DNA from: Ceratodon purpureus
Taxonomy: Eukaryota; Streptophyta; Bryopsida; Pseudoditrichales; Ditrichaceae
Assembly (NCBI GenBank): GCA_014871385.1
Contig: CM026427.1
Location: 10,664,430 to 10,728,429, forward strand
Direction: 5' to 3'
Length of the DNA: 64,000 bases
Positions 33,950 through 62,678 of this stretch are shown here, piece by piece. Both the position numbers and the translations under genes were made by a program. Below the pieces are notes generated by a model. It ran no database searches, was not told the DNA's origin, and saw nothing but the letters and a program-made list of their open reading frames with translations. Positions within the stretch are counted from its first letter, which is position 1; each line of letters starts with the position of its first letter.

Positions 33950-34593
33950 GTCACGGACGTCCGCTAGCACCCCAGGACGTCCTGTGACTTAGAAAAAAAA
34001 AATCACTCTCACAGGTTTCACCCCGGGGTGAAACCAGATTCTGGAGGGAGAAACATTTTTTGCTCGTCCGATCGGCCAATCCCGCCACGCGGTTGCATCT
34101 CGACCGACAGATCGCGGCGACGGCCGCCCTTCGATCCGACGGCCACGATGCAGCCGTTTAAGGCCATCGCGAGCCGTCGGATGTGGGCGGCCGTCGTCGG
34201 CCGTCTCCGTAGTCGACCGCGGGGACGGCCACCCTCGCCACTAAGGGCGGGGCAAAAGGGAGGGTCCGCGGAGCTGCCCCGCCCCTGGCCCTGCCCGCAC
34301 CCTCCCCGCTCCACCCTGGCCCAGGCAGCTCCCCGCCCTGTCCCCTCGACCCGGGCTCCTCTCCCGTCCCGCTCCCCATCATCGCCTTGGTCCACAGCCC
34401 GACTCCGCTCTCTATTATTTTTAAATTTTTAAATTTTTTTTTAATTTTTTGAAGACACGTAATCGTATTAGAATTACTGCAAAGAGGTTCTCTATTGTTT
34501 GAAACTCAGTCGTCTGAGTTGAGTCATAATTAAAAAGGGATATAACATTATCATCATGTCTTCGTCTTCCATGTAATGGAAGTATCATGCACC

Positions 34594-34951
34594 TAAAAAA
34601 ATAAACTGAATTCAATTGTACTATCCTGTCCCTGCGGCGTAGCCGTAGTAGTTCCCTACGCCGGAACGGCGTCTTAGGGTTGATGACTCCTTTGTCGAAT
34701 ATTCTTCATCCTCTTTGGGTTTATAACATGTTTTGGGTTTTAGGTTTAGGGTTTAGGGTTTAGGGTTTTAGGGTTTAGGGTTTAGGGTTTAGTTCCCAAA
34801 ATACTAACCAAAACATGTCATAAACCCAAAGAGGATGGAGAATATTCGACAAAGGAGTCATCAACCCTAAGACGCCGTTCCGGCGTAGGGAACTACTGCG
34901 GCTACGCCGCAGGGACAGGATAGTACAATTGAATTCAGTTTATTTTTTTAT
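34594..34951. mobile_element. foldback element with TTTAGGG telomeric repeats in its loop
   Basis: Arms of about 140 bp (34594-34736 and 34811-34951) are near-perfect inverse copies and include TGTACTATCCTGTCCCTGCG and GACGCCGTTCC-type blocks. The loop at 34738-34792 is a run of plant telomere units TTTAGGG, with some TTTTAGGG and TTAGG variants, about seven in all. No coding content. It splits block B from B' of the GC-rich nest. It could be a foldback MITE that acquired a telomeric stretch, or a repair insertion. Confidence 0.7.
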
Positions 34952-41725: not shown

Positions 41726-43066
41726 CTCATCTCGGATCCGAGGGGACCAGTTTGATACTCCAAAAAAGCATTTTAAACAAAAAAACAAAAAAAGCTATCT
41801 GTTGGTTGCAAGTAGCAAAGTCAAGCAAGCAAACGCACAGCTCAACCCGAGCACTTGAGTTTTAACAATAAAACATAAGTTTGCTTAGTTTTCCAAAAAC
41901 ACTATCAAATAAAACTAAAAATTAAACCACTTCATGGAACTCTTGAATGTCAAAGACCCGTAAAAGGATGTGTCTTTCCAATGAAAAATACATTCAAAGC
42001 ATACAAAGTTACGTAAGAATCCAAAAGAAGTTTAACAATCACATGTTTATTGAATTTTGAGATAAGTAAAATTAGGCATCCAACTTGAAAGGGATTAAAA
42101 CTCAGAAAAGTTCTTGAAAGTAAGAAAAGATAAATGTGGCCTTCACACCTCAAAGGGATCCATAATGTATTAGCTTTTTAAAATTATTCAACAAAAAAGG
42201 TATCTCAACTATGCCGATATTCTGACAATGCTGTTTTGAATTCTTCAAATTGGCACTACACATGGAGATTTTCTCCAAATCTTTGATGTAATACATCGTT
42301 GAAAAGCCCTCGTCAAGAGCTTTCCAAAAACATATAACGAGCCATATTTCCAAGAAAAAATAAAATCTCATCATTTTTTATGCGAGTTGTTAAAAAAAGT
42401 GATTGCAAGAGGCACCCCCAATCCATCCCTCGGGTCCGAGGGGTGCCTCCAAGCTCTGACTTTCACTCGCTTTTTTGCTTCATGTGAGCTCCAGCTCTAT
42501 GTTGGAGTCTCAGATTTCTATGCTTTTCAGTTTGAAGTGAAGGTTGGTGGCACCCCCGGACCATCCCTCGGATCCGAGGGGTGCCTCGGCCGAGTTTTTT
42601 TTTTGCTTTTTTGAGTGTCTAATGCTCTAGCAGCTACCTGAATGCTAATGGCTACGACTTTTGTTCTCTTTCTTGAGTATTGCTCGAGTTCTCTAACTAC
42701 TTGTGTCGCTAGAGCTTGCATGCTGCAAGCAAGCGCATTTGTTTTAATTTTTTTTTACAATCATGGCCTGTGGTTAAGGCTCAGATTTCTCTGCTTTTCA
42801 ATTTGAAGTGAAGGCTGGTGGCACCCCCGGACCATCCCTCGGATCCGAGGGATGCCTCGGCCGAGTATTTTATTTTGCTTTTTTGAGTGCCTGGTTATGA
42901 TTCTCAGTCACACAGAGTTAGCTGGTTTGATTTCGTTGCCTCGGATCCGAGGGAAGAATCTCACATATATTCTAAATCTCACATATGTTCAAAATCTCAC
43001 ACATTGAATCTCACATATATTCTATGTGAGATTCTCCTCTCGGATCCGAGAGGAGAATCTCACATA
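41726..43066. repeat. GGATCC-centred palindromes of the CCCTCGGATCCGAGGG type
   Basis: Copies lie at about 41731, 42427 (one base changed), 42565, 42836, 42939 and 43023-43066. The last is a perfect 44-bp palindrome centred on TCGGATCCGA, and flanking copies share GAGATTCTC and ATCTCACAT. They share the central GGATCC with the 20-bp palindromes further right but have different arms. Confidence 0.75.
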
Positions 43067-43571
43067 TATTCTTGCATTCACTTTTTTGACAACTCGCATA
43101 GAAAATGACGAGATTTTATTTTTTCTTGGAAATATGGCTCGTTGTATGTTTTTGGAAAGCTCTTGACGAGGGCTTTCCAACGATGTATTACATCAAAGAT
43201 TTGGAGAAAATCTCCATGTGTAGTGCCAATTTGAAGAATTCAAAACAGCATTGTCAGAATATCGGCATAGTTGAGATACCTTTTTTGTTGAATAATTTTA
43301 AAAAGCTAATACATTATGGATCCCTTTGAGGTGTGAAGGCCACATTTATCTTTTCTTACTTTCAAGAACTTTTCTGAGTTTTAATCCCTTTCAAGTTGGA
43401 TGCCTAATTTTACTTATCTCAAAATTCAATAAACATGTGATTGTTAAACTTCTTTTGGATTCCTACGTAACTTTGTATGCTTTGAATGTATTTTTCATTG
43501 GAAAGACACATCCTTTTACGGGTCTTTGACATTCAAGAGTTCCATGAAGTGGTTTATTTTTTAGTTTTTTT
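41911..43571. repeat. ~500-bp inverted repeat around a palindrome-rich core
   Basis: Arms 41911-42407 and 43073-43571 are inverse copies with few differences. The same two peptides are read outward from both arms: one begins MRCEGHIYLFLLSRTFLSFN, the other contains SMCSANLKNSKQHCQNIGIV. Those frames are mirror copies, not independent genes. The 0.67-kb core has two direct repeats of a block ending CACCCCCGGACCATCCCTCG (42541 and 42800) and several TCGGATCCGA palindromes. No terminal duplication was identified. It could be a foldback transposon or a local inverted duplication. Confidence 0.75.
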
Positions 43572-45205
43572 TTATAAACGCTATGGAAAATTACAAGATC
43601 ATTTGTTTTGGGAAATAATACTTGTCACATGTTTTGGGAAATCTCTCTTCAGGGGTTTACAATCAAAATATCTTCATAAATATTTGAAGAAAATTTCCAT
43701 GTGTAGTCTCTATACCATAGTCTTAATATCATAACATTTTTTGGAATTTTAGAGATTTCATGCTTGATCATATGGTTTTTTTAAATTAGTGAAGTGGTTG
43801 AGGACTTATAAACAATTGTTGTATGATAAGTTTGAAATTCATACCATGTTGTAGTTATAGATATGTTATTTTTATAAATGGTGGAAAAGGGAAGGTGTAC
43901 TCCATTACAATCATCAATTAACCGCATAAATTTCATGAAGATGATATCATAGATCCTTGGATAGATAGGATAATAAAAGTACTGCAAACACGTTTACAAG
44001 ATTTTTTGATATCTCTAAAAGATGGATTACAAAGTGGATATATACTTTCATTGACTTAGTTTCAACAAGGTTATGCGCTTTTTAAAACTTATTATACTTG
44101 ATAGATTCCTTTGGAAGTTTCTTTATGCCACATTTAAGTAAATCTGGACTTTCAATAGTCCAGATTGGTCAAAGTCCAACTGAAATATGATGGGTAGGGT
44201 GAATCGTAGGATCATATAATCCCGCAAAGACCTAACCGTTTTATGAAATTGAGAGAGACGATAAAGGTTAGAAATGAAAAATACAGCAAAAATTGCTCAA
44301 GATTGTGTGCGGATCTTATCAAGCATGTGGATATTAAAGATTGGCAACTTGTAAAACACCGTAAGATCCTACTATCCATGGTAAGTAGGTATATATAAAC
44401 ACTTCACGTTAGAACATTACATAAACAGTAAAGAAGACTCCAAGAGTATTCATACGAAAGTTATCAAACATGTGGGTATTGTAATATTTAGAAGTAGTAA
44501 GCAGGACCGTAAGATCCTACGATGTTTGCCAACCTAGGTGTAAAAACACATCACATTATTTGGATTCTGTGAAATGTAAAGAAAAATCCAAATCGGAGTA
44601 CAGCGTCTTACAGGATCGTAGGAAACCAGCACAGAGCCGGAAAGTCACTGAACTAATCCAATGGATCGGAAAAAGAGGAAACAAAGGACCTGAAAAGAGG
44701 GAAAACCTCCGGGAACGAGACAAGCTCGGGAAAAGTCCTGAAACGACTCACAGTCACCACCTAGTCCAAAAGAGCAGAAAAAACTAATCAAAAGGAACAA
44801 AGGGGCGTGAATGTGTCCAAAACTAAAAAGGACTAAAATGAAAGCTACCCTGAGCAACTAATGTACTATCTACTCAGGCTAACTAAAACTTCAACCCATT
44901 TCAACTACATGAGACTAATCCGTGAATGGCAAAATTAAGGTGAATAATGTCGTATTGATTGACAGAGTCTTCAGATTCCCGTGTAGAAGAGAACCGTTGC
45001 CGCGGATGAAAAGTGAGCAGGTGGGTGAGGAACCCGCCAGTGCTCACACTTCCAACTTGTAAGCAGCTTCTAAATACTTACAAGCCAATAGTATGTTACT
45101 AGACAAAAAAAACCAAAAAGCTTGCCCCGAGATTAGAACCTCCGAGTATGTGCAGTAGTCTATGCCAACGAAGGCCGCTGATGGTGGATGGAGATACTTG
45201 AGAAC
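43572..45205. other. no gene; left fringe of the palindrome region
   Basis: AT-rich to about 44200. Then degenerate copies of the 20-bp palindrome appear at 44202, 44357 and 44505, with a half copy at 44614. The ORF at 44560-44787 (+) is Lys/Arg/Ser-rich and unconvincing. Confidence 0.4.
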
Positions 45206-45712
45206 TTATTTTCGACCAGGAGGATACAGTTCCTTGAAAGATGGGGTCAGAAAATTCGGCCCTAAGTAGGGCATAGCTCTCCAGCAATCTCTGTATTCCT
45301 CCGACTCTGTAGTCAGCTCAAGACGGTCGGCTTCGTCCGCAGTGTGGTCTCGATCGCTAGAAGCCGCTGCCTCAGAAAGCTCGGGGTTGAAATTATCCGA
45401 ATTAGCCGCCACCTCCCCTGTGTGGCTGAAGTGAACGCTGCCAACACTCTCGGACTCCTCAGACTCCTCGGACTCCTCGAACGTCAGTGGGAAGGCGATG
45501 CCGGAAGCCTTAGAGATCTCCAGCAACTCTATTGTGTGAGCAATACTCCAATCCCACTCCGCACCTGGCTGAAGAACGCGTGTGATGTATTTGAAAGCAG
45601 GAATAGCTCTGTTGCGTGAACGGGCAACCACCGCCCTAAACCATGGCCGGAGCTCCTCGACGTCAGCCGGTGTCTCCTGTATAAACCAGTCATTGCTACC
45701 CCGCCTCCCCAT
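45206..45712 (-). CDS. small acidic protein of the palindrome-bearing region
   Basis: Single ORF of 168 residues starting MGRRGSNDWFIQETPADVEE. The N-terminal ~85 residues look folded (VEELRPWFRAVVARSRNRAI, then YITRVLQPGAEWDWS). The rest is acidic and low in complexity (EESEESEESESVGSVHF) and ends LGPNFLTPSFKELYPPGRK. No family recognised. It lies on the same strand as the transposase-like gene, whose stop is about 720 bases upstream, with a four-copy palindrome array between them. Codon composition matches the neighbouring element genes rather than the AT-rich flank, so I place it in the element. It may have a spliced leader through the array, which I could not resolve. Confidence 0.5.
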   Translation of the reverse strand: MGRRGSNDWFIQETPADVEELRPWFRAVVARSRNRAIPAFKYITRVLQPGAEWDWSIAHTIELLEISKASGIAFPLTFEESEESEESESVGSVHFSHTGEVAANSDNFNPELSEAAASSDRDHTADEADRLELTTESEEYRDCWRAMPYLGPNFLTPSFKELYPPGRK

Positions 45713-46092
45713 AACGACAAAATATTTGACAATATGCGACTAACTTCTGCAGTTTGTAACTAACTTCTACAGTATGCGACCTTCTTCTACAGTATCCGGC
45801 TGGAGTTCGTCTACTAAACTGGTAAAAATTCTAGTAATCCACTTCTTCTAGGGTTTCTGGACGTCTACTAGCCAACGTTCACCAATCCTAGTAGCGCCTA
45901 GGCTCCTACTCAGCGATAAAAAAAAAACATTATTAGGACTAGGACTAGCTTAACTAGCTGACAGCTGAAGGAAAGAAGCACATCTAAAACTGAATAATCA
46001 CTCAGCAACCAGGCAGAGGCAAAAGCAGCATAAACGAGTGCAGTTTGATTAAAAAAAGTAAAATCCGAACAGATGTAGCGAATGTTCAACAG

Positions 46093-46388
46093 GGTCGTAG
46101 GATCCTACGATCTCTTTACGAGTACTCCTGGGCAAAACGAAGCACTTCTAAAACAAAATAATCTCATAGCAACCAGGTAGAGGAGATCGTAGGATCCTAC
46201 GATCTCTTTACGAGTACTCCTGGGCAAAAAGAAGCACTTCTAAAACTGAATAATCTCATAGCAACCAGGTAGAGAAGATCGTTGGATCCTACGATCTCTT
46301 TACGAGTACTCCTGGGCAAAACGAAGCACTACTAAAACTGAATAATCTCATACCAACCAGGTAGAGGAGATCGTGGGATCCCACGATC
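46093..46388. repeat. palindrome array A: four copies in a 92-bp tandem repeat
   Basis: Copies of GATCGTAGGATCCTACGATC at 46093 (GG for GA), 46185 (exact), 46277 (one change) and 46369 (GATCGTGGGATCCCACGATC, paired change). Starts are exactly 92 bp apart because the whole unit, including TCTTTACGAGTACTCCTGGG and AATCTCATAGCAACCAGGTA, is tandemly repeated. Confidence 0.95.
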
Positions 46389-46434
46389 TAGCGACAAAAC
46401 TCTGGATGGATATGGGGGATAAATTATGCAACGG

Positions 46435-49400
46435 CTACGGATCCATAAGGTTAGCAGCATCAAGGTTAGCCAATGCGTTTACTCGATCTTGCTTTGGGAT
46501 CTTCCGTGTCTTGGGGTTTTCTTTTGTTGTGGACTTTGCAAAGAGCACTGAAGTTACATGAACTTGCTCTGGTCGTCGATCTTCTCGTACCCAAGTAGCG
46601 TCCCAGCAATTCTCGTACTTCGTCTTCGGGTCGGTGTGGCGATTTCTGGGCTCCCAGAATTCGATAGTGAACTGGCCATAGTCCGCATTTCGTTCATCAC
46701 GATTGACCGCTGAACATGCTCTCCCTAACCAGACGGGATAAATATCTGGGTCGGAGGGACGAAGTAGGACCCAAGCCCCTGGTAGGACATCTCGCCATGG
46801 GTTCAAGGCGGGCTTCGGTTGAGCGGACTTGGGGCCACAATAGGGCTCGGGTTCTTCATCCTCAGGTGTGACATCCGTCTCGGGGAGGAGGCATAGAGGT
46901 GCACTCTCCATACCTGACCAGTCATGATTAGGCCAGAAACCCTCTACCAAGGTCGTCACGGTTGGAGGAAGAGGTTTCTCCAATTCTGCGAGAATGCCCT
47001 TCCAGTAATCAATATACGGAGGAAAATCCTTGCGAAATCCGGAACATTCAAGCATCCCGCGTTCCCAAAATTCGATGTAACCTTGAATTCCACCCTTGAG
47101 GAATGACTTCTTAACGAGATTTTTGGAAACCTGTTCTCTTGCCTTGTCTTGGTTGCCAGTGGACGCAACAGTCTCATCACCCCACAAATTCTTGAAAGGG
47201 ACTGGATTGGGGATGCCAGATGGTATCTTCGGATTTCCATCAGCATCCGCCTTGAATAGACGGATAGCCGGCTTGTTCCTAGGTAGCCAGTGTTGGTCAA
47301 CTGCAAACTCCTTGAATTGCATGACGGGCCACCCGCTTTCGTCTACATAGAATTTGAAGAGGTGCATATTTCCCAAACCCACGAGAACATCCGCTCCGTC
47401 AATGAGATAGCCTTCCACGAACGATTTGAAATCCGCAACCTCCTGAACAAACTCGGGCATGAAACTCAATTCCTGGGATTTCATGAAGGCCAACATCAAG
47501 TCCGCAACAATGTAAGTATTCTGACTCTTCAAGGTCTTAGACAGATGGCTAAAGTAGGCATCAATATCCTCGTGCGTGTGCCCCACCAATAAGAAACCAG
47601 CCTGGATCTCTTTGAATACACGCCGATAAGTAAGCATCGACAAGAACCCCATCAGGAATTGATTCTTGTTGTCCTTTGCGGAGTTATCCAACTGCAAATA
47701 AAGTTTCACTGGGAGCGGAACGCGTTCACTGGAGTTATTCGTTACTTGGGGTAGTACGTCAAAACATCTGGACTTTCCCTTGAGCATGGCTCGAAAGAAG
47801 GAGTTAGCGGGCTCATGAGGGAACAGTTTGCCAGATTGACGAATGGGTGGTTCCTCAAGACGCCGAAGCAGTCTCGCAAGCGAGGAGATAGTGTAGTTAG
47901 AGTCGCCTGGCCACAAGTCTGTCGAGAAGTGGGCGTAGGCACCGTCGCCGTGCCCATGCGTAACCATGCCCGTGACATTCATAGGAAACTGTCCCAACGG
48001 TGAAGTATGTTTCGTGGAAACGCGCATTCGAGGAATAGCCGTCTTTGCGGTATCCATTTTGTCGTGGATAATACAAAGTATTTCGCCCTTCTGCCTCTTT
48101 GACTCCTCCCTCCAAGTGTGGTACAGACGCCTACAAGACGACTGAAGATTGCAATGGTCCTGTTTCTGTTTCACAAACTTGAGGTATTCTGGCGACCCCT
48201 TCACTGATCGGTCAATGTACTGGAGAAGAGTGTCGCACTCTGTGCACTTCGCGAAGGAACTCCCAACGGGTTTGATTGCGACATTCTTAAAGTGCTGCTT
48301 CTTCAGCCTACTTATGGCTGATTGAGACACCGCTGGTAACCCAAATTCTAAGTTGGTCTGCATATCAATCCAAAAAATCTGCTAGTCAGAGATGTACCCT
48401 ACTTGTACTCTTCATAAGCATTAGCAATGTGGAAATGAAGCAGGAATGCAATATTAAAGATGTTTAATCTAGAGAGTTCGTAGGATCCTACGATCCCAAA
48501 ATACACCATCAATTTTGTGTAAACATTTCCTCCCAACTTAGAGATCGTAGGATCCTACGATCCCAGAGTAGATGGGAATTTTGTGTAAACATTTCTTTTC
48601 GACTTAGAGATCGTAGGATCCTACGATCACGTAGGAGAGTAATTGGTAGCGGGTCACTATGGATCGCTAATAATAAAAGGTCACTACAGTAATTTGTGAA
48701 CCCCGTTAAAGATCGGGTGAACCGATGTTCCAAGTCGTCGGATCGTAGGATCCTACGACCTCAGGATTATCAAGCAGATGTCCCATGAAAGATACACTGA
48801 ATTTACAAGAGGGCGTGTTGTTCGTAGTTAGTACCTGGGTGGCGTCTTGTTGGATCATTTTCCAACTGTGACCAGAGGGTAGAAACTTCAGTGTGTCCAT
48901 CCTGCCAGGTGCTATCATTCTCATCTGATTGGGCATAAGATCAGTTGTCTCATTGATGATGGCTGTGACTGTCCCAAGTGCTTGCACTGTTCCAAGGCGG
49001 GGCCGTTTGACATCCTTGTTCCCGTGCGTCGAAGATACGACACCTCTCTTGTACTCTTTCATGTATTCGTGAAATGTCGATTTTGGTATACCATGGATCT
49101 TGTACCATGCCGTAGCGCATACATCCATTCCATTCAACGTGACGTACTTCTGCTTCCTATTACTTCCCACATAGTGGAACTGGCCACCCACAGACCGTGC
49201 ATAATCCCGGCGTGCGTCGAAGTCCTTCAACCAGTACTTTTGTCGAATGACAAGTGTATCCTGGGGCCTAAACAAGCGGACACATTCGCTGGAACAACAC
49301 CGCTGAGAGCACAGAGCTTGAATTTCTACGGGAAGAGTCTTCTTGGCATAGAGTTCGAGTTTCTCGTCTATCCGCTTTTTGCGCCGAATAAATCGATAGG

Positions 49401-50122
49401 GGGCTTTTGGGCGGCCTCCGAGATGCCTCTGGGTGTCTACACCGTCAGGATGAAGAGTGTAATAGTCAACAGAATCGCTAAGCCTATGCCCACCCTCAAA
49501 TACACATTCCGCTATCGGCCACCTACGATGGCTCATGATTTCCCCTGGATCCCCGAGGAAGACGTCCAGCACTGTAACTCCAATGTATCCCACTCCCAAG
49601 GTGTGGTCCTCGAAAGGATCCTCTGGACGGACGCAGTTGATTCGTCCAGAGGCCAAGATATCCCCATTGTCGTTTAACCGCTTCACGACCTTCGCAACCC
49701 ACTCAGCCTGGGGGACATATGGTAGGGAACTTGTGGAGTCCGAGCATTCTCCATCGCGCGTATTTCGGATCACATTTCTTGTCTCCCAAAGTACCGTTCT
49801 ACCAAGCGCATCGGCCAAGACGGAGATGTCCGTCTGTAAAGGTTGCATAGGCAGGTAGAGCGCCATCGGAGTTATCTCAATGGGACGAAGGAGGGTCATC
49901 CCGGGGGTTGTGTTCTCAATATCGACCCCAAGCCAAGACCCAATGGGGTTCGCTTCAATGACAACGGCATGACCAACAATGCCATGGCCAGGATAGCAGA
50001 TGAATACATTCAACCCAGGTATGAATGGGTCTTGCTGCTCTGCCGTGTCAGAGTCGTAGTTATTACACGTGGGATCCATAAAGTCATCGTCTTCTCCAAC
50101 ACTAGTTGACATATTTGATCAC
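46435..50122 (-). CDS. DUF7869-like transposase candidate, two coding exons
   Basis: Coding exons 48835-50112 and 46435-48357 join in phase 0 (CCCAG|GTACTA donor, ATGCAG acceptor) to give 1,066 residues. A 5' UTR acceptor TTACAG precedes position 50122. The N-terminal half ends in the Cys-rich CCSSEC block, the VCATAWYKIHGIPKSTFHEY region and a lone HG motif. The second exon has a KCTEC zinc pair, then three acidic positions of an RNase H-like fold: IIHDKMDTAK (Asp 525), LYLQLDNSAKDNKN (Asp 650) and GHTHEDIDAYF (Asp 690/692). This order is the one I know from DUF7869 proteins, which look like DDE transposases. A C-terminal module starting PGAWVLLRPSDPDIYPVWLG looks like a BAH or Tudor-like barrel. 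The frame is intact and the catalytic-type residues are all present, so it may be active. The family call is from memory. Confidence 0.72.
48476..48760. repeat. palindrome array B in the transposase-like gene's intron
   Basis: Copies at 48476 (GTTC start), 48543, 48609 and 48741 (GACC end), spaced 67, 66 and 132 bp, so one slot of a 66-bp period is empty. All lie in the intron 48358-48834. The unit includes TTTTGTGTAAACATTTC. ORF ends that run through it read VGSYD, a translation of the palindrome and not real coding. Confidence 0.95.
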
Positions 50123-50202
50123 CTGTAAGAATGAAAGAAATCAATTCCGTTAGAATAAATCATGCAGAAAATGGGATTTTTTGAGCGAAGAAGTGGTGAT
50201 GA

Positions 50203-50577
50203 GATCGTAGGATCCTACGATCTTCCACGGACAGTGAAAACGTTGGGTATCACGGTTATCACCTTAAACCCTCTTTAAGATAGCAGATGAAGGTAAGGTT
50301 GACACCCCCAGGTTATGTTAGCGGATGCCCTTGAGCAATGGATCGTAGGATCCTACGACCTGTGTCCTGGTACCATGGAAGACACTATAGCGCAGAGATC
50401 GTAGGATCCTACGATCTCGTAAAGCCTTTGGTGGATGCGAAACCAACAATGGTATCGTAGGATCCTACGATCTTATCATGTTGATAACGGATGCAAAAAA
50501 CATTCATTGGATCGTAGGATCCTACGATCCCATCGGTGTTCTCTCAAAAATTAGAATGATCGTAGGATCCTACGATC
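50203..50577. repeat. palindrome array C upstream of the transposase-like ATG
   Basis: Copies at 50203, 50341, 50397, 50453, 50510 and 50558, four exact and two with one change. Spacings are 138, 56, 56, 57 and 48. If the leader splices from a CCCAG|GTATTAG donor at 50880 to the acceptor at 50123, this array is wholly intronic, matching arrays B, D, E, F and G. Confidence 0.95.
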
Positions 50578-52680
50578 CTGCAAGTGATCCGGAATCGTTT
50601 TGATGAATATTCGTCCGTACAGTGAGTAATTAGTGGACTCTTGAATTTTCGGGATTTCTATATTAACTGGCATGTTTGTTTTACGGCAGTTGATAGCGTC
50701 AAACGCAAGAACCACGAAAAAATATGCATTAGAAATTGCTATTGAAATGATTCAGCGATAACACTTAACATGCGATACAGTATGTTATCTAGAGTCGCAA
50801 ATATATCAACGTAATATTCTTACGGCTTATCAACGTAATTAAGCAAAGAATAAAGTGGCCAGGGAAACTATGTCTAATACCTGGGAATGACGTCAATTTG
50901 GGTCCGTATTTCCCGGTGTGGACGCCGCGGAGTCGATGATGCAACACGGCGGAAGCTGAACGTGTTAACTGCAGGAACCGCTTCTAAATTATATTAGAAT
51001 ATGCCATTGGAATGACTGTGATGCACTTAACATTGCAATGCATGATTTCTACATTCGCAAAATTAATACAAGAATGCCTATCCAGACGCCGGGAACATTC
51101 GAGCGCATCAATAATTGCTGGAACACATTAAGTGTGCAAGAACCTATGGTCTGTAGGAAATCAGTCAGGAATCGAGGGAGCAAGTAAGACTACTCTTCTG
51201 TCCATGCAAGATTCGTCATTTAGCAGTTCTTACGAATTATCAAGTTGATCAAGCAAGCAATTTAAGGGAGAGGAAACTAACCGGACCTGTGTTGGAGATC
51301 GTCCTCGGTCCGTGTTGCCCGCAATTGACGCCGCGGAATCAATGATCTCCTTCGCTGGAGCTTAAGGACAGTGTGTAGTTGCTGAATGTCCAGAGAACAT
51401 GACGTCGATACATGAAAACAAATAACGATATGTCTAAAATGGAGGCGACCTAAGTTTAATGCAAGTCTTGGCAACTTTCGTGCCTTTACTGAAGAGCAAA
51501 GCTACGCCATGAGTATGAATGTGCACTAGTTCTAATAAACTGGCAGAAGAAACCAAGTCTAGGAAACGAAGTCGAACCACAGAGGAGAAATACCACAGAT
51601 AATACTTCTTCATGCATATGAGGTCTGGATCAAGATCAAGAACTGGTATGCATACTGGGCTTGAGTAGGGACGAAATCATTCTCAAGGTGCTGAGGAAAT
51701 GAACAACTCCCTTTGATTGAACAAGTAATCATTTGAAGGAGCGTAGTAACAATAGAGTAGTCGGAATTGTTACTAAGCCATGACACCATTCAATGAGCAT
51801 CCTGAACACAGGGTAATTCGGTACCAATCATGAAGTCGCAGCAAATTGTCCGTCTTGTAAAGTATCATGATAATTAGGTGTGCTCGTCCGGGTATCTAAT
51901 TGACTAGACAAACCACCTTCAGTGAAACAGTGACTGGCATCCATGAACCCTGAACCCTGAACCCTGGAAACCCTAAACCCTAAACCCTGAAACCTTAAAC
52001 TCTGAAGTGCCCTGAAGTATTTTTAATTTCAAATTTAAGAAAAATAAAATACCAAAATGAATAGTCCTCTCTGAGAATAGAAATAAAATGATTAGCAATT
52101 AAATATTCGTCAAAAATTGGAAGTTCCAATCATTGTACATAAAAATCCCTTCTTATCTAGATAATAAACAGGATCGTGCCTCCATGGCCACAATTTTGTA
52201 TCATATTTCTCCGCTCTTGTTCCCTACCCTTTTTTATTCATTTTTTTAATCTTCGTAGTAAATTCATTTCTCATTTTTAGTTACTAGCCATATATTTATT
52301 TTATCTAAATAATTATGTCTTATACTTTTTCGAAGTTGTAGCATATTAAGTGTGCATATACAAAAACAAAGTAAACTACATTGTATAAATAAAAGTTTCA
52401 AACATTGGACACAGATCTCCTCTAGTATGCATTTACAAAACAATAAACCACATAATTTGTAAAATTAATAGTTTCAAAGTTACATTCAACACAAATTTCT
52501 CGTCTCATGCTTGTAAACACATGTCTACGACCAACTTGCTATTAATATCTTTCTAATACATATTATGAAGTCCTGTTTGAATTTACCAACCATATATTTA
52601 TTTTATGTTAATAATTATGTCCATCACTTCGAACGAAGTTGTAGTATCACTATCAACATTGTGCACAATGTACAACTTAG

Positions 52681-52711
<31 letters not shown>

Positions 52712-54588
52712 ATTACATTGTCTTATTAATTAAATATATTAAAATATTAGTTACTAATATTTATTTCTGAGATTCATAATTCTTCTTCCAGAAGATGCGA
52801 TGCTTTTTTTCAAATTATGCGTCTTTGTGGAGATGTTCACTTATATATTTATTTACCTTGATATTATTTAAATCATCACGCGTGTGATGTATTTTTATGT
52901 CTAATGCTTCTTCTTGAAGATGCGTTGAAGAAGATTTATTCATCTCGATTTTATTCTTCATGCGTTATGTTTCTTCATGCGTTATGCTCCATTATTTTTT
53001 TAACCCTCTTAATAAATATAATATAAGTGATTGTTCCATTTTTCATAGGATTATTATGATATGTGCAGGTCATTTTCCTATAGTTTCTCAAATGCTATAA
53101 TTTCACAAATTCACAAATAAAAGAAAGATAGTTTTTTCATCTTTTATTTTTTTAGGTTTTTTTTTATGAAACCCTTCTTCTTCCCTGTTTTCCTTCACCA
53201 TTCTTTTATTGTTTTATTAAAAAGCAACCCATGATATTAAAAATAGATAGTAATACCGTTGTTAGATTCCCAACTCCCGTTAGATGCATCCTTTAGTAAA
53301 ATGCGTAATTTTACGGAAAATAGTAGACCACATTGTATAATTCAATAATTTCAATCATTCAACACAAATCCCTTTTTCATGCATTTAATAAAAATACATT
53401 GAACGGACCCATGTATACGAGGTAATTGTTTAGAAACGTACCAAGTTCGATGTTTTGATGTTTTTCCATCGTTTATTTATTAAATTATCTTTCTATATAA
53501 AAGGTATAATTTTTTTTAATTTACTAGCTATAAATTAATATCTTCCTTATTCTGTTAATCATGTATATTCATATTAACCTTCGTAGATATTTAGGTCCTT
53601 TAATTTGTGGAAGCTGGCTTTTGTAAACCATATACAGTGTAGTATTTACCTTCATTAATTATTGGAATCTGTATATCAAACTTCTAGACAGCTCTCAAAC
53701 TACTAGACAGCTCTCAAACTACTAGACAGCTCTTCATTCACATCAAACTAGTAGACAGCACTCAATGAATAGCCGCCTTAGTTAGAATTCTAATTATTCC
53801 ACAGCTTCTGACATTTCAAACGCGTTCATCTTCCCAAACCCGGTTTCTTGATTTCCCGCGACTCCTCGGAGACTTGCCTTTTGGTTTCATTCGCGTTCTC
53901 TACGCATTCACTGTTTTAGCCGTAGCGTATGTGTTTTGCTGCTGAATTTTCGCGATCGTCCCGTGCGTTGTCGCTTTTGGTGTTCCGCTATTTAAACCTT
54001 TGCTTTCGCCATCTCCTGCGCCTTTGTTGTCGCCATTTCTGCCATTTCTACATTTGCACGCAGGTAAGCAATGCTCTTACGATGTATTTGTTCCCCATCC
54101 AATCGCTGTTTTGTGGTCTCGAGACCTACGATCATTGTCTTAGTCTCCAATTTCTTGAGTTTCTTTCCTTATGTATTCCTGCATCCAGCTTACATTTACT
54201 TCCCAACCTGCCTGTACAGAGTTACTCGGTGTTCGAATCCGATTTGGTGCAAAATTTGAAGACCGTGGTCTAACATCGGTGGATGGTGTTGCGTCGGTAC
54301 ACAGCTGCATCCTTCGGGAAGAGTGCGACGCTTTGATTTCAGGTAAAGTACTTGATACGACACTATCCCGCAAAAGCTGCCCTTTCGTTCAATTCCATCC
54401 TTTCTATGTAGCTTAGCCTTCGCTGAAGGTTTCTTTATGGTAGTGAATGGCGAGCAAATGGACCGACGTTGATGTTATTTTTGGTGCAGCACTATTGCAA
54501 AATTGACTTTGGGTTATCACAGTGGTTGCCTTAACGATCCTGCTTTCTACTCTCATGTTTACAGAATTGGAAATTGAGCAACGTCAGT
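50578..54588. other. divergent promoter region between the two large element genes
   Basis: No protein gene seen. About 50815-50985 and 51225-51380 are diverged direct duplicates (each with GACGCCGCGGA and AAGCTGAACGT/GAGCTTAAGG-like blocks). At 51944-52002 there are degenerate telomere-like CCCTGAA/CCCTAAA units. A 29-A run lies at 52681-52709. A 19-20-bp tandem repeat with core CTAGACAGCTCTCAAACT fills 53681-53766. From about 53900 the DNA is the leader of the rightward gene. A leader exon ends CGCAG|GTAAGC at 54063, another ends TTTCAG|GTAAAG at 54341, and the acceptor TTTACAG precedes 54564. Confidence 0.5.
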
Positions 54589-57500
54589 ATGTCTTCGCAA
54601 GTAAGAGAACCGCAAAACGCTCTTGACAAGTAAGTATTCACTGAATTTTCCAACTCTATGCATTAGAGGTTCGTGTTATGCGTTTGAATCAAATAAACCA
54701 GTGACACGATTCATTCAGAATTGGACACATTTTATTGTTATTGATGTGAAATGTTTCAAAAATCACTCCATTTTGGAATTCCTTATATGTACGGCAGTAA
54801 TGATTACATCATACAGAGAAAAACGATCCTTATTAGATGCCCCAATAAGTATTGGAGCTGAGAGAGATCGTAGGATCCTACGATCTTCGAGTTGAGCACC
54901 GTTTATTTCCGAAACGCATTCTGAGGGTCGTAGGATCCTACGATCTCTTCTCGAGCTCCCCCTTCAATTTGGAACCCTTTGGGAGATCGTAGGATCCTAC
55001 GATCCTTGGAATAAGCAAACTTAAGCGCAAGTGAAGTTGGAGATCGTAGGATCCTACGATCTCTCAACGGTTACGAAAAGATGACCGTGGCTCATCGAAA
55101 GATCGTAGGATCCTACGATCTTAAAGGGGAGTGGTTTTCCGAGCGGCGCATTAGAATGATCGTAGGATCCTACGATCTAAGACAAACGTGTTGTAATTTC
55201 AAACGAGAATGGGGATCGTAGGATCCTACGATCTCAAATGAGTAATGAATGAGATCTAATAATTCTGTTCTGTTTGATGCAGGGATAACTTAGAAAATGT
55301 CGAGGACGTTAACCCCGACTGGCAACCAATGGTTTTGGCGGATGCTGTTTCCTACTCGCTGGTGATAGCTCCCATGTATATCAACGTCGACCCTGAACCG
55401 ACCGCGTGGTTTGTCGCTGATAAAATTGTCGAGTGGGGTCTTTATTGGCATCTCGAACCCGAGACGGAGCGAGTTCTGATTGCGCCAGTTACGGCAATCA
55501 CGGATGAGTCCGCACCTAGCGGAGACACTTTTAAGCTACCCACGAATAACTTGGAGGTACTGGAAATAGCCAAGTTCTACGATCGGTTTATTGTATTAGT
55601 AATTTCGGAGTATGTTGCGAGCGTAAACCTTAGTCGCACATACGCCCTGATTGTTATGAAGGACGCTCTGATGCCGAAGCTAACTGACTCTGTGAAAGAC
55701 CATGGCTTCGTGATCCCGAAGATTCATTTACCAGTTCATAGGATTCTGCAATGCTGGACAGAGCTGAAGGCAAATCGTGATAAATACAATAGGGATCGTA
55801 AGACGAAAGTTCCGCCCTCGCCCTTGAAAAAGAAGAGGGGTAGTACTTCTCTTAGAGTAGTAGATGAGCCTCCAGCGAAGAAACCATCTCAGCGCAAGAA
55901 GTCTGACCCTAAGGTAGAAGAGATGACCCTCGCGAAGGTGGTCAACATGACGAGCAAGACAGTGGCCGGGAAATCAGCAAAGGAGCTGCAGCAAGTGAGG
56001 GCTCTTTACGAGAAGGAGTTCACCAAGCTACACATCTTTGGGAAGCGGCCCATCAAAAAATCTGAACGAAGTCAGGACGACTTGCTAGTCGACATTGACA
56101 AGCTCCACCGAGCTCCAGCGGGTAGCATTGTGTATCGGAATTTGGAGCTTAAACGAGTGAATCAGCTGATGGACCAGAAACGGGCAATGCCGTTTCAGCC
56201 TTCACTCCAGCACCTCTACGTGATGCCAGTTAAGGGGGAACCGCCAATTCGCAAGGAGGACTTCAAGGATGTGCCTACGGATACTTACGAGTATTTTGAT
56301 CACAAACCGACCTGGAGTGACATTAATGAGAGAACGCACTTCATCATTATAGGCGGGCAACACTGTGTTGCCGCACACAGAGCCCTCATCGCCGAGGGTG
56401 GACTAAGTGAGGAGGATAGGAGAGATGCACGAAGTTTTATCGTCACTGTGGTCTGGGCCAAAAAAGAGGAGTGGAATCTACTCATTTATTATTCCCGGGT
56501 CCTGAATCAAGACCTTGCCGGTGTGCGATCAGAGGGGAACTATCTTACTCTTCTGGGACTTGCCCGCAGAAGTTGGAGAGAGGCTGGATCGCCAGCACCA
56601 TCATTAACGGGTCTTGCGCACTCACACGCATTCAAGGTATGCCAACATTGCATTACAGTTTTGTTAATGATTCCGAGATGTTAAATGTATCGTCCACGTT
56701 CTTCCGGATCGTAAGATCCTACGATCTCTGATTTCAGCAGTGTTTGTTTCCAACAAGCATTCCGAGGATCGTAGGATCCTACGATCTCGTGCAGAGCTCC
56801 ACTCTTCGATTCCTGGCTCTGTGAAGGATCGTAGGATCCTACGATCCTCGGAATGCTGATATATGAAGCGTCACTGAACTTGGAGATCGTAGGATCCTAC
56901 GACCTCAACTACACATTTAACATCAATCTGTGCATTCGATGTTCTGAATGATTATTTGGATGCAACGCAGAGTTGGTCTGACAAACTGCCCGCTCTGTTC
57001 TCCAACTCCGACTCCAAGTCTATTGAAGATGGCAACACTGGCATACCGAAATATTCGCTGCTCTTTGTAGATGAGCAGATTTACAGAAAGTGGTGTGGTA
57101 TTCAAGACAATTGGGTAAATGGTTTGCTTCCTGATGCGTTTGGACAGTATTCCACCTTCGTCGCAGGTGTGGATGAGGACGATAACAACGACGGGGATGG
57201 AGGGATAGGAAGTAGTAAGAAGGAGCGTCTGAAGCAGAAGAGATACCAGGTGCGAGCACTGAAGCAGACTGACTTAATGCCGCTTTATTCCATGCGAGAT
57301 ATTGACATCACGAAGGTTACGGAGCTGGTGTTACAGAAGAAGGTGTCTGTGAAGTCCACAAAGTCCACCAAGAAACAACCCGTTCTTCCGGGCCTGAATG
57401 AGGCGTGTCATTTGGAGAAGAAGCGCAGGCTCATCAAGAATGAGTTCATGCACTACTTCGAAAACAAGGAACTAAGGTGTAAGACAATGCGAGCAGACTC

Positions 57501-60500
57501 GTACACCGATGCAGAGTATGATACCGCGGCGCTGAAATACAATGTAACCGAGGCCACCATAGACACGTGGTACGAGAAGCTAAGCAAGGATGTTAATGGA
57601 GAGCGTTTTTTTAGGATGCGGTCTTCGGCATTGTGTCCATCCAACAAGGAATCAGATTTTCCGACTCTTCTCGGTATGTTATTTGAGTACCAGAGAAAGA
57701 ACAAAGGCGACCGGGTTGAGGACGTGGCTGCAACGTCAGGACCGTCCGTGGCATCGATGTACAAGTGCCTCAGAATGAGCAGGAAAAACGGGGATCTCGC
57801 TACAATTCTTGATCCAAAAAATGGCGAAATTGTTTCCTGGATGAAGGCGACTGCACGGATTACCATAGTCTTCTGCTTCTTGAACCGAATGGAGAAGGGG
57901 GCGCCTGACTTCTCAAGCATGGATCAGGTGGTGCGTTCTCTTCGGGCGATGGAGATCCACGATAAAGCGCAGTTCAGGAGGGCACTATATTCGGGGGTCT
58001 TCATCACCGATCGGGCAGGAATGGTTGACGTTGCCAACGCTACAGACGAGAGAGGCTCCCGGGTCAATCAAATTCGGCCGTGGCTCCATACCCCGACTCT
58101 TTATATTACACAGGGAAAGGAGGGATTTATCACTCCGACGACCCCTGAACCTACACTCCCCCTGTACTTCAATTTTGTTTATGGAAACGACTTCGATCAG
58201 AGAACGCCTGATTCGATTTGCTTCCAACAAGCTTACGGTACAGACATGCCCTTCTACCAGGTTGTATCTGCAGCTGATTTCAAGGATCCCCCGACACAAT
58301 GGGCACAAGATGGTTATGCTAACTTCAACATCGATGCAGTTACACACATTCTTGGCACCCTGGGAGCACCTAACAACATTCTGGTCAACATTGGAGGCGG
58401 TCCTTCGATCACTTGGATTGGCCTGGTAAGAGGATCGTAGGATCCTACGATCTCATCCCCTGCAACCCGTTCTGCTTGTCATAGGACTCTCTTTTTATTA
58501 TAGTTACATCATCCCGTACCTACTTGGGATCGTAGGATCCCACGACGATAACTACATTCAGTGATTAAAGCAAATTAGAAATTCAAGTTAGCGTTCGAAT
58601 GATCGTAGGATCCTATGATCTCTGAATGAGTTTCGTCCTTCAACGATCATGCTTTGGGAGATCGTAGGATCCTACGATCTCCAAGTTCCGTGCCGTTTCA
58701 CATTGAGCAGTATGAGGATCGTAGGATCCTACGATCTCGTTCCCTAAATCCTTTCTGCTTTCAATGTCTTATTCCATTTATTGTCGTAATTTTATCACCT
58801 ACGGGCTTCTCGTATTCACTCTTCCACCTTACTTTCTGTTGTTACAGACAAGAGGCGCGCAAGTCCTCGAAATCGTGTTCAACCAGAATGAAGTGGAGAA
58901 AGTGACGAAAACGGCGAGTGATATTCTCGAAAGTGCGAAAACGCTCGCCATAACTGTACCTGCTATGGAGGCTCTGACAATGAGGGAGAAATCGCAGAGG
59001 GGTGCCACTTCCCGGCGAAAACCCCCGATTGAGCTTTCCGACGATGAGGAGGAAGAAGAGCGAGAGGAGGTAGAAGAGGAAGAAGAGGATGAGCATGATG
59101 AACGGCGGGGAGAAGAGGAGGGTTTGCACCTTCGTGGAGGAGGTGCTCGCAAGAGACTGAACATGGAAGGATCTTCTGAACATGAGTATGGCTCACACAG
59201 TCTCGGCGGACGTCGGACCGACGATGCCGATGAAGAGATTTATGATGATCTTTTTACAGTATGATGCAGTTCCCGACTTCTGTACTAGTAATCAGTTGTG
59301 GTGTTTGACACATGGTACAGAACTAACTAGATGAATGTCACTATTGTGGAACGAACCATGCAATGTGTCATTGTTTAACATTTCGTGTATTTATTTCCGT
59401 TACTGATCGCTTTGCAGGTTAACCATCCCGACCACCCGCCACCTCCAGGTGGATGCTTTCCGAGATCCGCTTTGACGCTGGAGTCCACCCCTCCGAATCC
59501 GCTTTCCCGAAGTGAACGCGGGATTTACTCTTCGACTAGTCCAGATCAAGAAAAATTCCAGGGGGGTACTAGTTCAAGTGCAGAGAAACGTTTCCATGGC
59601 GATTCTGGCCCTCCTGGACAAGATGCTGAAATGCAGTCAGCGGTAGAGGCTGCGCTGACTACACCTCCCTTTGGCATTACATCCTCTTCGCCAGTTCATG
59701 ATCAATGGGCTGATCCGTCTCCAATGCATATCGATACCGTTTTATGTACGTCCAGAAGTCAGGCCCAAGGGTCCGAGGGTGATTTGCAGCAGCAAAATGT
59801 CGCGGATACGCTGGCGCAAATGCAGGACGATCCGGATCCATACGCTCTTCCATCTGTGCCTAGCGACTTAGCAAAGGACAAAGAGGTACTTACTGGTGTC
59901 TTTGCAGATGCCCACAAAGCGGGGTTGCGGCCTTTCAGCCCTCCTGGATCGGACCCCTTCACAGTTTCCCAGGAAATTTACCGCTCGGAGTCTCGCTCCC
60001 GTGATGTGCCGCCTGCGAATAAGAGAGCTCCCACAGAAGGTATTTCCCACCACTTTTCTTGGCGGAATCAGAGTAATCCTTTTCAGGCATTTTCTATGGA
60101 CTCTAGGATCGTAGGATCTTACGATCCAGAAGGGTCAAAATTTCATCCTTATATCATCTCCTTGCACATCGTAGGATCCTACGATCTCTCAAATGGATCG
60201 TAGGATCCTACGATCTCTATTTTGGTTTGTCGAAATGTGACCTCCACTTTCAGGATCGTAGGATCCTACGATCTCTTTTTTGGTTTGTCGAAATGTGACG
60301 TCCTCTTTCAGGATCGTAGGATCCTACGATCCATACGCTCGTCTCAGTGTTCTAACAGAAATGTCTTCTTTTGATCTCAAGGGTTAAAGTCTTCGTCGTC
60401 TACGCAAAGCAAGAAAACTGTACCAGTTGTACCAATGAAAAAGGGATCTGCATCGTCTAGAGAAGGTAAATCTCGCCACACTATTTGATTTTACATGACA

Positions 60501-61082
60501 TGTGTTCTGCAAGGATGATTCTTATTATCGATTTGGCTGTCTTTTGCAGGCAAACAAACTGCCCCCGCGAAGTCAACCGGGACTAGTGGCAAGAAGGTAA
60601 GGCAACCTCGGTACACTATTGTGGTGGACTTGAATGGTTTCCTTGTATTGCGAGGCGGCAGTAAGAGTCAAGAAATCAAAGTTAGGCCTGACGCGGGAAA
60701 GTTCATGGAGCTATTAGCAGAGAAGGCTAATGTCGTGGTATGGAGTTGTATGATCAAAAAGAATGTGGATAGGATTCTAGCGAAGGTTTTAGAAGGGTCA
60801 AAACTTAAGCCGGAGCACCTAACGGTGCTAACGCAGACCGAAACTACCAAGTCCAGATACCGAAACGAGGAAAACCCAGACAAGCAAATCATGCTTAAGG
60901 ACCTTAAGGTTGTTCAGGAAAAGCTTGAGCATGTTGACCTAAGCCGAACATTGCTCATTGACGACACCTGGTACAAGAATCTTCTCAACGATTACCATGA
61001 TGCAATCTTTCCCATTCCGTGGACGGGGTTGCCTGGGCATGGTTGTCATAATGGACGGACGGGCCAAAAAATTGTCGTGTAG
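54589..61082 (+). CDS. 1,499-aa element protein: ParB-like motif and C-terminal FCP1-like HAD domain
   Basis: Seven exons (54589-54629, 55283-56636, 56971-58425, 58848-59258, 59418-60039, 60382-60465, 60550-61082) keep one open frame in phases 2,0,0,0,1,1. Exon 2 holds a basic linker (PPSPLKKKRG) and, near residues 366-380, THFIIIGGQHCVAAHRAL. This resembles the GxHRxxA box of ParB/sulfiredoxin-fold proteins. Exon 3 contains a helix-turn-helix-like AALKYNVTEATIDTWYEKL near 652. Exon 4 is Glu-rich (951-1087) and exon 5 is Pro/Ser-rich. The last exon is an FCP1/NIF-type HAD domain: VVDLNGFLVLR (nucleophile Asp1349, second Asp replaced by Asn), VVVWSCM, and LLIDDTWYKN. Loss of the second Asp may weaken phosphatase activity. 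Introns 1, 2, 3 and 5 are filled with the 20-bp palindromes; introns 4 and 6 have none. The acceptor of exon 3 is the least sure. Confidence 0.68.
54866..55233. repeat. palindrome array D in intron 1 (seven copies)
   Basis: Copies at 54866, 54926 (GGTC start), 54985, 55042, 55101, 55158 and 55214, six exact. Spacings are 60, 59, 57, 59, 57 and 56, so 20-bp repeats alternate with 36-40-bp diverged spacers. It is the most regular array and looks superficially like a CRISPR, but the spacers resemble those of array E, so they are diverged copies and not acquired sequences. Confidence 0.97.
56707..56904. repeat. palindrome array E in intron 2 (four copies)
   Basis: Copies at 56707 (one change), 56767, 56827 and 56885 (GACC end), spaced 60, 60 and 58. 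Spacers share blocks with array D, for example GAGCTCC...CTTC and TTTCC.A..GCATTC.GAG. Confidence 0.95.
58433..58736. repeat. palindrome array F in intron 3 (five copies)
   Basis: Copies at 58433, 58528 (3' half altered), 58601 (TATGATC), 58660 and 58717, spaced 95, 73, 59 and 57. The first copy begins seven bases after the 5' splice site, the closest approach of a palindrome to an exon. Confidence 0.95.
60107..60331. repeat. palindrome array G in intron 5 (five copies)
   Basis: Copies at 60107 (CTTACG), 60167 (CATC start), 60196, 60254 and 60312, spaced 60, 29, 58 and 58. The last two spacers are near-identical (TTTGGTTTGTCGAAATGTGA), showing tandem amplification of a 58-bp unit. The short 29-bp gap looks like an internal deletion of half a unit. 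Confidence 0.95.
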
Positions 61083-61083
61083 T

Positions 61084-61406
61084 CACGTGACGAACGTGAC
61101 GGACGGTTATCGGACGGACGCTTATCGGACGGGCTCCCGACCGCGAGCAAAATTACTGTCCTCACAGTTTACTACTGTTTACCATGGGTGGCGCCCGTCG
61201 TCGTGTCCGCGCGCGTCTTTGCGCCTGTTCGCGCCGGTCATTTGTGGCTGTTCGCGCCCGTCGTCAGTCTCGCGCGCGCGCGGTGATCGCGCCCGATTAC
61301 CCTCGCCCGACCAGGGTCGCCCGCGCCCGTAACATGCTCGCGCCCGTAGCAGCCTGCGCGCGCCCAACCTGCTCGCGCCCACACTGTCGGCCCCGTGAGT
61401 ATAAAT
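61084..61406 (+). promoter_or_regulatory. GC-rich CGCGCCCGT promoter with TATA box, copy 1
   Basis: Starts right after the stop of the large gene with GGACGGTTATCGGACGGACG, then dense CGCGCCCGT/CGCGCGCC motifs to about 61380. A TATA box TATAAAT follows at 61400-61406. Downstream the leader has a C-rich tract, GCCTTCAACAGCCC and GGTAGCTGATTGC. The same layout and leader recur in copy 2 ahead of the next gene. ORFs over it are Arg/Pro/Ala artefacts. Confidence 0.7.
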
Positions 61407-61527
61407 TGCCACCCTCCTCCACTGATTTCGCACCCCCCCACTTTGTGCATTTTGCCTTCAACAGCCCAAGGGTAGCTGATTGCTTAGTGCTACGGTGGGT
61501 TTCTCAACATTCGGTGTACCGTCCAAC

Positions 61528-61932
61528 ATGAATTCCAACGCCTGCAATTGCCAACAAATCAAGTCCATTATGAGTTTAACGAATGGTGCTACTCCACCGG
61601 GCACTGCACAGCGAACGGACACAGTTATTTGGTCAAAGCTGGAGCGACTCCGTCAACTGATTGAGTTCTTCGAGGATTGGATCTCTCGCCGTGACAAATT
61701 GGTGGCCTACGCAGAGAATGGACGCCCTCTGCCTCCAACCACTGAAGAGCAGTTGGCAACCCAAGCGACTGTCGAAGAACTTGACTGTGAGATTGGCGAT
61801 CTCATCAAAGAACTGAAGAAGGAGATGGCAATACTTTGTGTCCCCACTATTGTCTCTAGTGCTCAAACGAACCATTTCGAGACGCACTTGAAAGACCTAG
61901 AGGACCGGTACCTAGAGTGCATGGCACTGTAA
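61528..61932 (+). CDS. 134-aa helical protein of the element
   Basis: ORF from ATG 61528, about 125 bases after the TATA box, to TAA at 61930-61932. I prefer this start to an upstream non-ATG extension because the leader upstream matches the untranslated leader of copy 2. The protein begins MNSNACNCQQIKSIMSLTNG, then is mostly helical and charged (WSKLERLRQLIEFFEDWISR; EELDCEIGDLIKELKKEMAI; THLKDLEDRYLECMAL at the end). It could form a coiled-coil dimer. No family recognised. AATAAA-type signals follow at 61964-61973. It is intronless, unlike the larger neighbours. Confidence 0.6.
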   Translation: MNSNACNCQQIKSIMSLTNGATPPGTAQRTDTVIWSKLERLRQLIEFFEDWISRRDKLVAYAENGRPLPPTTEEQLATQATVEELDCEIGDLIKELKKEMAILCVPTIVSSAQTNHFETHLKDLEDRYLECMAL

Positions 61933-62039
61933 TCGACATTACAATGAAGTGATACATTTCCAAAATAAATAAAGTATTCTTTTTTAACTCTGAATTTGCA
62001 AGTCCTCTTTGGTTACTCTGATTTTTAACAGTGTTCTAG

Positions 62040-62403
62040 GTTGTGGTGGCGCCCGTCCTGGCCCACTGCTCGCGCCCGTCCATTCAGTGTTGGCGCCCGA
62101 CGGTCGCGCCCGTACAGTTCGGATCGCGCCCGAAAATATCCGCGCGCGCGCCCCTTCGGTACCCGGACGACGCCCGCTCGCGCCCGACGAAGACCGGGTC
62201 GGTACCCGCTCGCGCGCGGTAAAACCCGCGCGCGCCCGTCATATACCCGCCACTGAACCGCTCGCGCCCGTTGATATCCGCGCGGGCGCGGACGGATACA
62301 CGGCCGAAACCCCGCCGTCGGTGCCCGCGCGCGCCCGTCGGGTTTCCGCTCGCGCCCGTAGCAGGCTGTTCGCGCCCGTTCCCTGGCGCCCGTGACTATA
62401 AAA
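62040..62403 (+). promoter_or_regulatory. GC-rich CGCGCCCGT promoter with TATA box, copy 2
   Basis: Again dense CGCGCCCGT, GCGCCCGACG and GGTACCCG motifs, a TATA box TATAAAA at 62397-62403, then a C-run, GCCTTCAACAGCCC and GGTAGCTGATTGC leader matching copy 1. A possible leader intron runs from ACTCAG|GTGGGT (about 62491) to TTCTCCAG (about 62536). The two copies are diverged in the repeat part but close in the TATA-leader part. Confidence 0.7.
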
Positions 62404-62678
62404 GGGCGATTTCCCACCTCATTTTGCACTCCCCCCCCTTTGAGCACCTTGCCTTCAACAGCCCCCGGGTAGCTGATTGCGTGGTACTCAGGTGGGTCCC
62501 AGCACTCTGACACGTGTCCTTGTTTTTATTCTCCAGAACTCTATGGTGTCTGTGTATTACATTTGAGAATTTTGTAAATGTTTATAATTTGTAAATGTGA
62601 TTGAGGTTCTGGGGTAGTCGTAGGCTTTTAATTTTGCACCTTCGGAAGACTTCGAAGAACGATCTACCTCGAGCAGAC

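Follow-up and report, generated by a model that had tools for sequence, protein, structure and literature searches.

An array of a perfect 20-bp palindrome, GATCGTAGGATCCTACGATC, occupies the introns and adjoining non-coding DNA of two genes, here called A and B, on opposite strands of a stretch of the genome of the moss Ceratodon purpureus (GenBank assembly GCA_014871385.1, contig CM026427.1, positions 10,664,430 to 10,728,429). The whole stretch of 64,000 nucleotides is referred to below as the window, and all positions are given in its numbering. The array is a real, non-random and constrained set of motifs in introns. The explanation favoured here, held tentatively and at somewhat less than even chances, is that the palindromes are bound at the DNA level by a sequence-specific protein acting as a dimer, which the element itself most likely encodes, and that the arrays tag gene bodies in a manner likely to counteract silencing. 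In behaviour, the arrays appear most like the target arrays of VANC proteins in the VANDAL elements of Arabidopsis.

Copies, placement and constraint of the palindrome

A scan of the window found 36 copies of the palindrome at three or fewer mismatches, 21 of them exact, and 35 of these lie at 46093-60331, where 14 copies with one to three changes accompany the exact ones. The 36th copy (44505, three mismatches) belongs to a degenerate left fringe, which also includes a half-site at 44614 and two members with four mismatches each, at 44202 and 44357. None of 100 dinucleotide-preserving shuffles of the window gave any copy at three or fewer mismatches. The copies group into seven clusters, and among the 28 copy-to-copy intervals shorter than 250 bp, 17 measure 56-60 bp, with two clusters using 66-67 and 92 bp. 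A first-pass annotation of this DNA had listed 35 copies, 21 exact and 14 with one to three changes, in seven clusters with four more degenerate copies at the left fringe, and the exact and mismatch scans agree with it on each of these points. Across the 35 copies, only 17 changes are found in 700 positions, 11 of the 20 palindrome positions are invariant, including the central four bases, and beyond each end conservation tapers off through flanks of purine/pyrimidine character. The exact 20-mer has no match in the viral collection, in the prokaryote collection or in the text of the literature searched.

Gene models for A and B were built from sequence alone, by linking exons whose splice sites agree in reading phase, and both are intact. 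Relative to these models, 25 of the 35 copies sit in introns between coding exons, six lie upstream of the ATG of gene B and four past its stop, and none occurs in the 4,011-nt space between the two genes. One copy overlaps the end of the first coding exon of gene B by 1 nt, and the other 34 touch no coding base; these counts used 46439 as the end of the second exon of gene B, one base short of 46438. At the level of the seven clusters, the chance that all would be non-coding is 0.008, and the chance that none would fall in the intergenic space is 0.003. The palindromes had earlier been pictured as belonging to gene cassettes, which is wrong, as most clusters are introns of one seven-exon gene and of one divergent gene.

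The arrays have been copied between introns in both orientations. The segment at 54866-55063 in intron 1 of gene A is 79% identical to 56707-56906 in intron 2, and part of the array in intron 3 repeats that of intron 2 in inverted orientation. Tandem units of 92, 66 and 58 bp are also present locally. Homology between spacers is supported independently: in 676 comparisons among 26 spacers in both orientations, 18 exceeded a z of 4, the top four being tandem units.

Divergence was compared in eight homologous pairs, of which six were pooled. In the pool, palindromes changed at 9 of 276 positions and spacers at 64 of 385, about five-fold fewer changes in palindromes (p = 9e-9, from sites that are not fully independent, as the intron 2 array enters the pool twice and one unit is shared by both 92-bp comparisons; some bias is also possible because the alignments are anchored on palindromes and certain arrays serve more than once). 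Intron 1 against intron 2 gave 3/80 palindrome and 34/116 spacer substitutions (p = 1.7e-6), two further pooled pairs gave 1/40 versus 8/39 and 1/40 versus 11/46, and the 58-bp tandem pair was not significant alone (p = 0.11). The two pairs left out of the pool, which reuse the same arrays, gave 1/60 versus 36/78 and 1/40 versus 8/38. The earlier description of strongly drifted spacers around a near-invariant palindrome therefore holds in four of the six pooled pairs, including the 58-bp tandem pair, but fails in the 92-bp array at 46093-46388, where palindrome (4/76) and spacer (8/146) have changed about equally (1/38 versus 4/73 and 3/38 versus 4/73 in its two comparisons).

Neutral growth of the repeats is an unlikely explanation of this pattern, although several features speak for it. 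Slippage, unequal exchange and copying between introns, with the palindrome kept as a functionless hot spot of recombination or conversion, would account for the 92-, 66- and 58-bp tandem duplications, for the arrays copied between introns in both orientations and for the even drift of the 92-bp array. Conversion confined to 20 bp beside spacers that differ by 20-29%, as in three of the six pairs, is improbable, however, and neutral growth also fits poorly with the roughly five-fold lower change in palindromes and with clusters that avoid the large intergenic space at the chance level given above. The first-pass annotation had offered a selected binding or structural site, or homogenisation; the homogenised form is hard to square with the same 20-bp limit, and the protein-binding form agrees best with the pooled divergence and with the lack of RNA-pairing bias described below. 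Micro-insertion with target duplication was ruled out as a source of the palindromes because none of the 35 copies has direct flank duplications of 4-8 nt. Flank matches of 3 nt were found in 7/35 copies against 2.3 expected, a count that includes non-independent tandem copies.

DNA site or RNA structure

Function at the RNA level, in which palindromes of the pre-mRNA fold or pair and thereby affect splicing, small-RNA production or intron stability, would suit copies that sit in introns. A single 20-mer folds at -9.8 kcal/mol, and intron 1 folds with a z of -16.5 against 20 shuffles, and adjacent palindromes pair with each other in the predicted structure; such strong folding is as expected of any RNA with these palindromes. 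A symmetric double change at 46369 (chance 0.06) and two neighbours at 56767 and 56827, which are complementary in all 10 flanking bases too, also point toward RNA.

The record of changes points the other way. When the 16 changed pairs are read on the transcribed strand, one is a symmetric double change, five would become G-U and 10 are broken, and single transitions that keep a G-U pair stand against those that break a pair at 5 to 5, so that the compensatory or wobble bias expected of an RNA hairpin is not seen in these small numbers. The loop of such a hairpin would be formed by the central four bases, and their invariance was counted for a DNA site. Pairing extended into the flanks is not above chance overall (p = 0.08 for adjacent copies and 0.37 within arrays, for 31 of the 35 copies, the 92-bp array being omitted), and 43800-64000 contains no Rfam match. 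The lack of RNA-pairing bias and the invariant centre favour a DNA site, on small numbers, and function at the RNA level is given a low probability.

Possible protein binding and the nearest known systems

A two-fold symmetric 20-bp site would be bound by a dimeric protein, and the palindrome is proposed as a dimer site because it is symmetric, constrained and present in many copies, with conservation fading into both flanks. The reader protein would most likely be encoded by the same multi-gene element, by gene A or gene B, both of which are probably transposon-borne. With arrays in introns and in gene-flanking non-coding DNA, the transcribed bodies of both genes would be tagged, and by analogy with VANC the most likely purpose would be to keep methylation off the element's genes and so sustain their expression.

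VANC21 of Arabidopsis is described as binding a 9-base motif in one orientation that is dense in the introns, intergenic regions and terminal non-coding regions of VANDAL21 (PMC5735166). These motifs often form tandem repeats, and VANC21 is reported to cause loss of methylation across the element (PMC5735166; PMC10398659). As in the VANC arrays of VANDAL21 and VANDAL6, the window has a short motif in many copies that lies in introns and other non-coding parts, is rare in coding sequence and has grown in tandem (PMC5735166; PMC10398659). The earlier statement that no described eukaryotic element carries such arrays was thus too strong, since VANDAL is described as having protein-bound arrays of short motifs in introns and non-coding parts (PMC5735166); among the listed matches of a literature search, read as titles and abstract openings, nothing on palindromic intron arrays appeared besides the VANDAL/VANC work. 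Unlike VANDAL, the genes here carry DUF7869 and a NIF-phosphatase domain. Pfam scans covered exons 2, 3, 4, 5 and 7 of gene A, both exons of gene B and open reading frame (ORF) C, and found no MULE transposase domain in these parts, although such a gene may lie outside the window. The locus resembles VANDAL in motif placement and tandem growth but lacks the MULE transposase in the parts scanned, and it is not filed as VANDAL.

Other systems share single properties with the array. En/Spm elements carry many copies of one short TNPA site near their ends, and short repeated sites are typical of transposases and their helper proteins. A transposase or helper might likewise bind the palindromes to join the element ends, as at the sub-terminal TNPA sites, and gene B, with its large DUF7869 domain, may be a transposase, judging by eye. 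The likeness to En/Spm lies in one short site in many copies, whereas the copies here are spread in introns across genes and not at recognisable ends. When 37-52 kb was compared with 52-64 kb for terminal inverted repeats, with the palindromes masked, no inverted match longer than 16 columns was among the 40 matches listed; the element may extend past the right edge of the window. A role in transposition is considered improbable. Bacterial ParB recognises parS, a long palindromic site of a size similar to that of the palindrome here, but a ParB domain is unsupported in gene A. Fungal transposon-encoded TET/JBP dioxygenases are thought to counter methylation-based silencing, according to one published account (PMC12730594); the present case differs in being a motif array and not an enzyme, with no such domain in the scanned parts of genes A and B.

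Several observations weigh against binding by a dimeric, element-encoded protein that protects the genes from silencing. Palindromes are missing from the intergenic space, where promoters are expected, a distribution unlike that of a simple promoter site. The site is a 20-bp perfect palindrome, unlike the 9-bp, singly oriented motif described for VANC21 (PMC5735166). No DNA-binding domain was found in the scanned parts of genes A and B, the structures predicted for exon 2 of gene A and for the DUF7869 exon had mean pLDDT values of 34.3 and 34.5, too low to be of use, and the 92-bp array shows no excess constraint on its palindromes. The CpG observed/expected ratio is 0.91 in array introns with the palindromes masked, against 0.45 in 18-30 kb (the chosen comparison), 0.82 in 38-44 kb and 1.05-1.32 in the repeat-rich 34-38 kb, with 2-kb windows left of 34 kb ranging from 0.22 to 0.89; the argument from CpG for anti-silencing is weak, and a recent arrival would look alike.

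A bolder form of the proposal, regarded as rather doubtful, is that a non-Mutator transposon lineage independently evolved VANC-like self-tagging, with a dimeric protein reading the 20-bp palindrome in each of the large introns. In that case the reader might be the gene A product with its phosphatase domain, which would act directly on RNA polymerase II along the body of the gene. If the palindromes do serve as protein-bound tags, self-tagging by motif arrays against silencing would not be a peculiarity of Arabidopsis VANDAL but would have been reached more than once, and the arrays would be a clean case of selection on intron sequence. A 20-bp palindrome with 21 exact copies would also be an easily testable site, and the protein that reads it could serve in sequence-specific editing of plant epigenomes.

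Genes A and B and other features of the window

Table 1. Coordinates of the palindrome arrays, gene models and neighbouring features in the window.
Feature	Position	Strand	Remarks
Degenerate left fringe	44202..44524 (to 44622 with half-site)	none	copies with 4, 4 and 3 mismatches
ORF C	45206..45712	-	168 amino acids; no Pfam match
Palindrome array past gene B	46093..46388	none	4 copies as tandem units of 92 bp; lies between ORF C and the stop of gene B
Gene B second coding exon	46438..48357	-	640 amino acids; stop at 46435-46437; DUF7869 (PF25273, E 1.3e-43)
Gene B intron	48358..48759	-	4 palindromes; frame continuous across junction
Gene B first coding exon	48760..50112	-	451 amino acids; no Pfam match; a stretch resembling helix-turn-helix, by eye only
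Palindrome array upstream of gene B	50203..50577	none	6 copies, 91-465 bp before gene B ATG
A-B intergenic space	50578..54588	none	non-coding, no palindromes; degenerate repeats of telomere type and an AT-rich segment
Gene A coding exon 1	54589..54629	+	41 nt
Gene A intron 1	54630..55282	+	7 palindromes
Gene A exon 2	55283..56636	+	no family match
Gene A intron 2	56637..56970	+	4 palindromes
Gene A exon 3	56971..58425	+	no Pfam match
Gene A intron 3	58426..58847	+	5 palindromes
Gene A exon 4	58848..59258	+	acidic; Pfam matches below cut-off only
Gene A intron 4	59259..59417	+	159 bp, no palindrome
Gene A exon 5	59418..60039	+	no Pfam match
Gene A intron 5	60040..60381	+	5 palindromes; 58-bp tandem units at 3′ side
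Gene A exon 6	60382..60465	+	84 nt
Gene A intron 6	60466..60549	+	84 bp, no palindrome
Gene A exon 7 with stop	60550..61082	+	NLI-interacting-factor-like phosphatase domain (PF03031, E 6.2e-9)

Gene A lies on the plus strand, and its seven coding exons (54589-61082) and six introns give an unbroken frame of 1,499 amino acids. The palindrome-bearing introns (1, 2, 3 and 5) measure 334-653 bp, and the palindrome-free introns 4 and 6 measure 159 and 84 bp. Gene B, on the opposite strand, has two coding exons that encode 451 + 640 = 1,091 amino acids. The palindrome at 48741-48760 overlaps its proposed 5′ splice site, and the intron junction is provisional, as its donor (GTCGTA) matches the consensus poorly. 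The array upstream of gene B is probably in an intron of the 5′ untranslated region, judging from an acceptor, TTCTTACAG, about 10 nt before the ATG, with no donor located.

NCBIfam and PHROGs scans of parts of genes A and B gave no convincing match. Several weak matches were taken as chance: in gene A, exon 4 matched Pox_Ag35 (E 0.0016, below the cut-off, in an acidic run), exon 3 matched a GMP synthase model of NCBIfam (0.2) and a dUTPase of PHROGs (0.045), and exon 2 matched chains of ribosomal protein eS26 (0.13); in gene B, the DUF7869 exon matched T-cell receptor chains (0.27). A helix-turn-helix reading of gene A exon 3, made by eye, is without support from domain or sequence searches, and a ParB-like stretch in exon 2, also noted by eye, is unsupported by Pfam, NCBIfam, PHROGs, a PDB sequence search and tblastn. 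With E values allowed up to 10, neither exon 2 nor a fragment of it matched ParB in Pfam, each being a single-sequence query with which weak remote homology is possible. A tblastn search with the fragment at E ≤10 returned three phage records (best E 0.8) and seven Bradyrhizobium plasmid records (best E 0.5), which were likewise taken as chance; the matched product is annotated as partitioning protein RepA in six of the seven plasmid records. No relatives of gene A exons 2 and 3 were confirmed in viral contigs. For the DUF7869 exon, none were confirmed in viral contigs and none were found in prokaryote genomes, and DUF7869 as a term has no match in the literature searched.

Other short motifs are also repeated in the window. 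The palindrome CTCGGATCCGAG, which has the same GGATCC core as the 20-mer, is present as five exact copies and one with a change at 41731-43050, far above local shuffles, and one of the copies sits in the middle of a perfect palindrome of 44 nt at 43023. An inverted repeat at 41870-43609 has 528-nt arms that are 96% complementary. The motif TTCCACGTC occurs in 10 copies on one strand at 39522-40685, within a partly tandem repeat, and GCGCCCG occurs at 61191-62392 in 17 copies on one strand and one on the other, with a single copy elsewhere; both are far above local shuffles. The GCGCCCG stretch lies to the right of gene A and contains an ORF at 61540-61932; beyond it, a second ORF runs from 62682 to the window end. 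If CTCGGATCCGAG, TTCCACGTC and GCGCCCG belong to other elements, the window may contain several family-specific motif arrays.

A diverged duplicate (72%) links 61336-61500 and 62348-62497; it contains a TATA-like box by eye and lies upstream of two different ORFs. In the rest of the window, Pfam identified a MinD/ParA-type ATPase and an ammonium transporter, and degenerate telomere-type (TTTAGGG) tracts are found at 34730-34792 and 51946-52006; taken together, these features suggest nuclear DNA of a plant. A perfect 22-nt palindrome, GGTTTCACCCCGGGGTGAAACC, lies at 34014-34035 beside the repeats of 34-38 kb.

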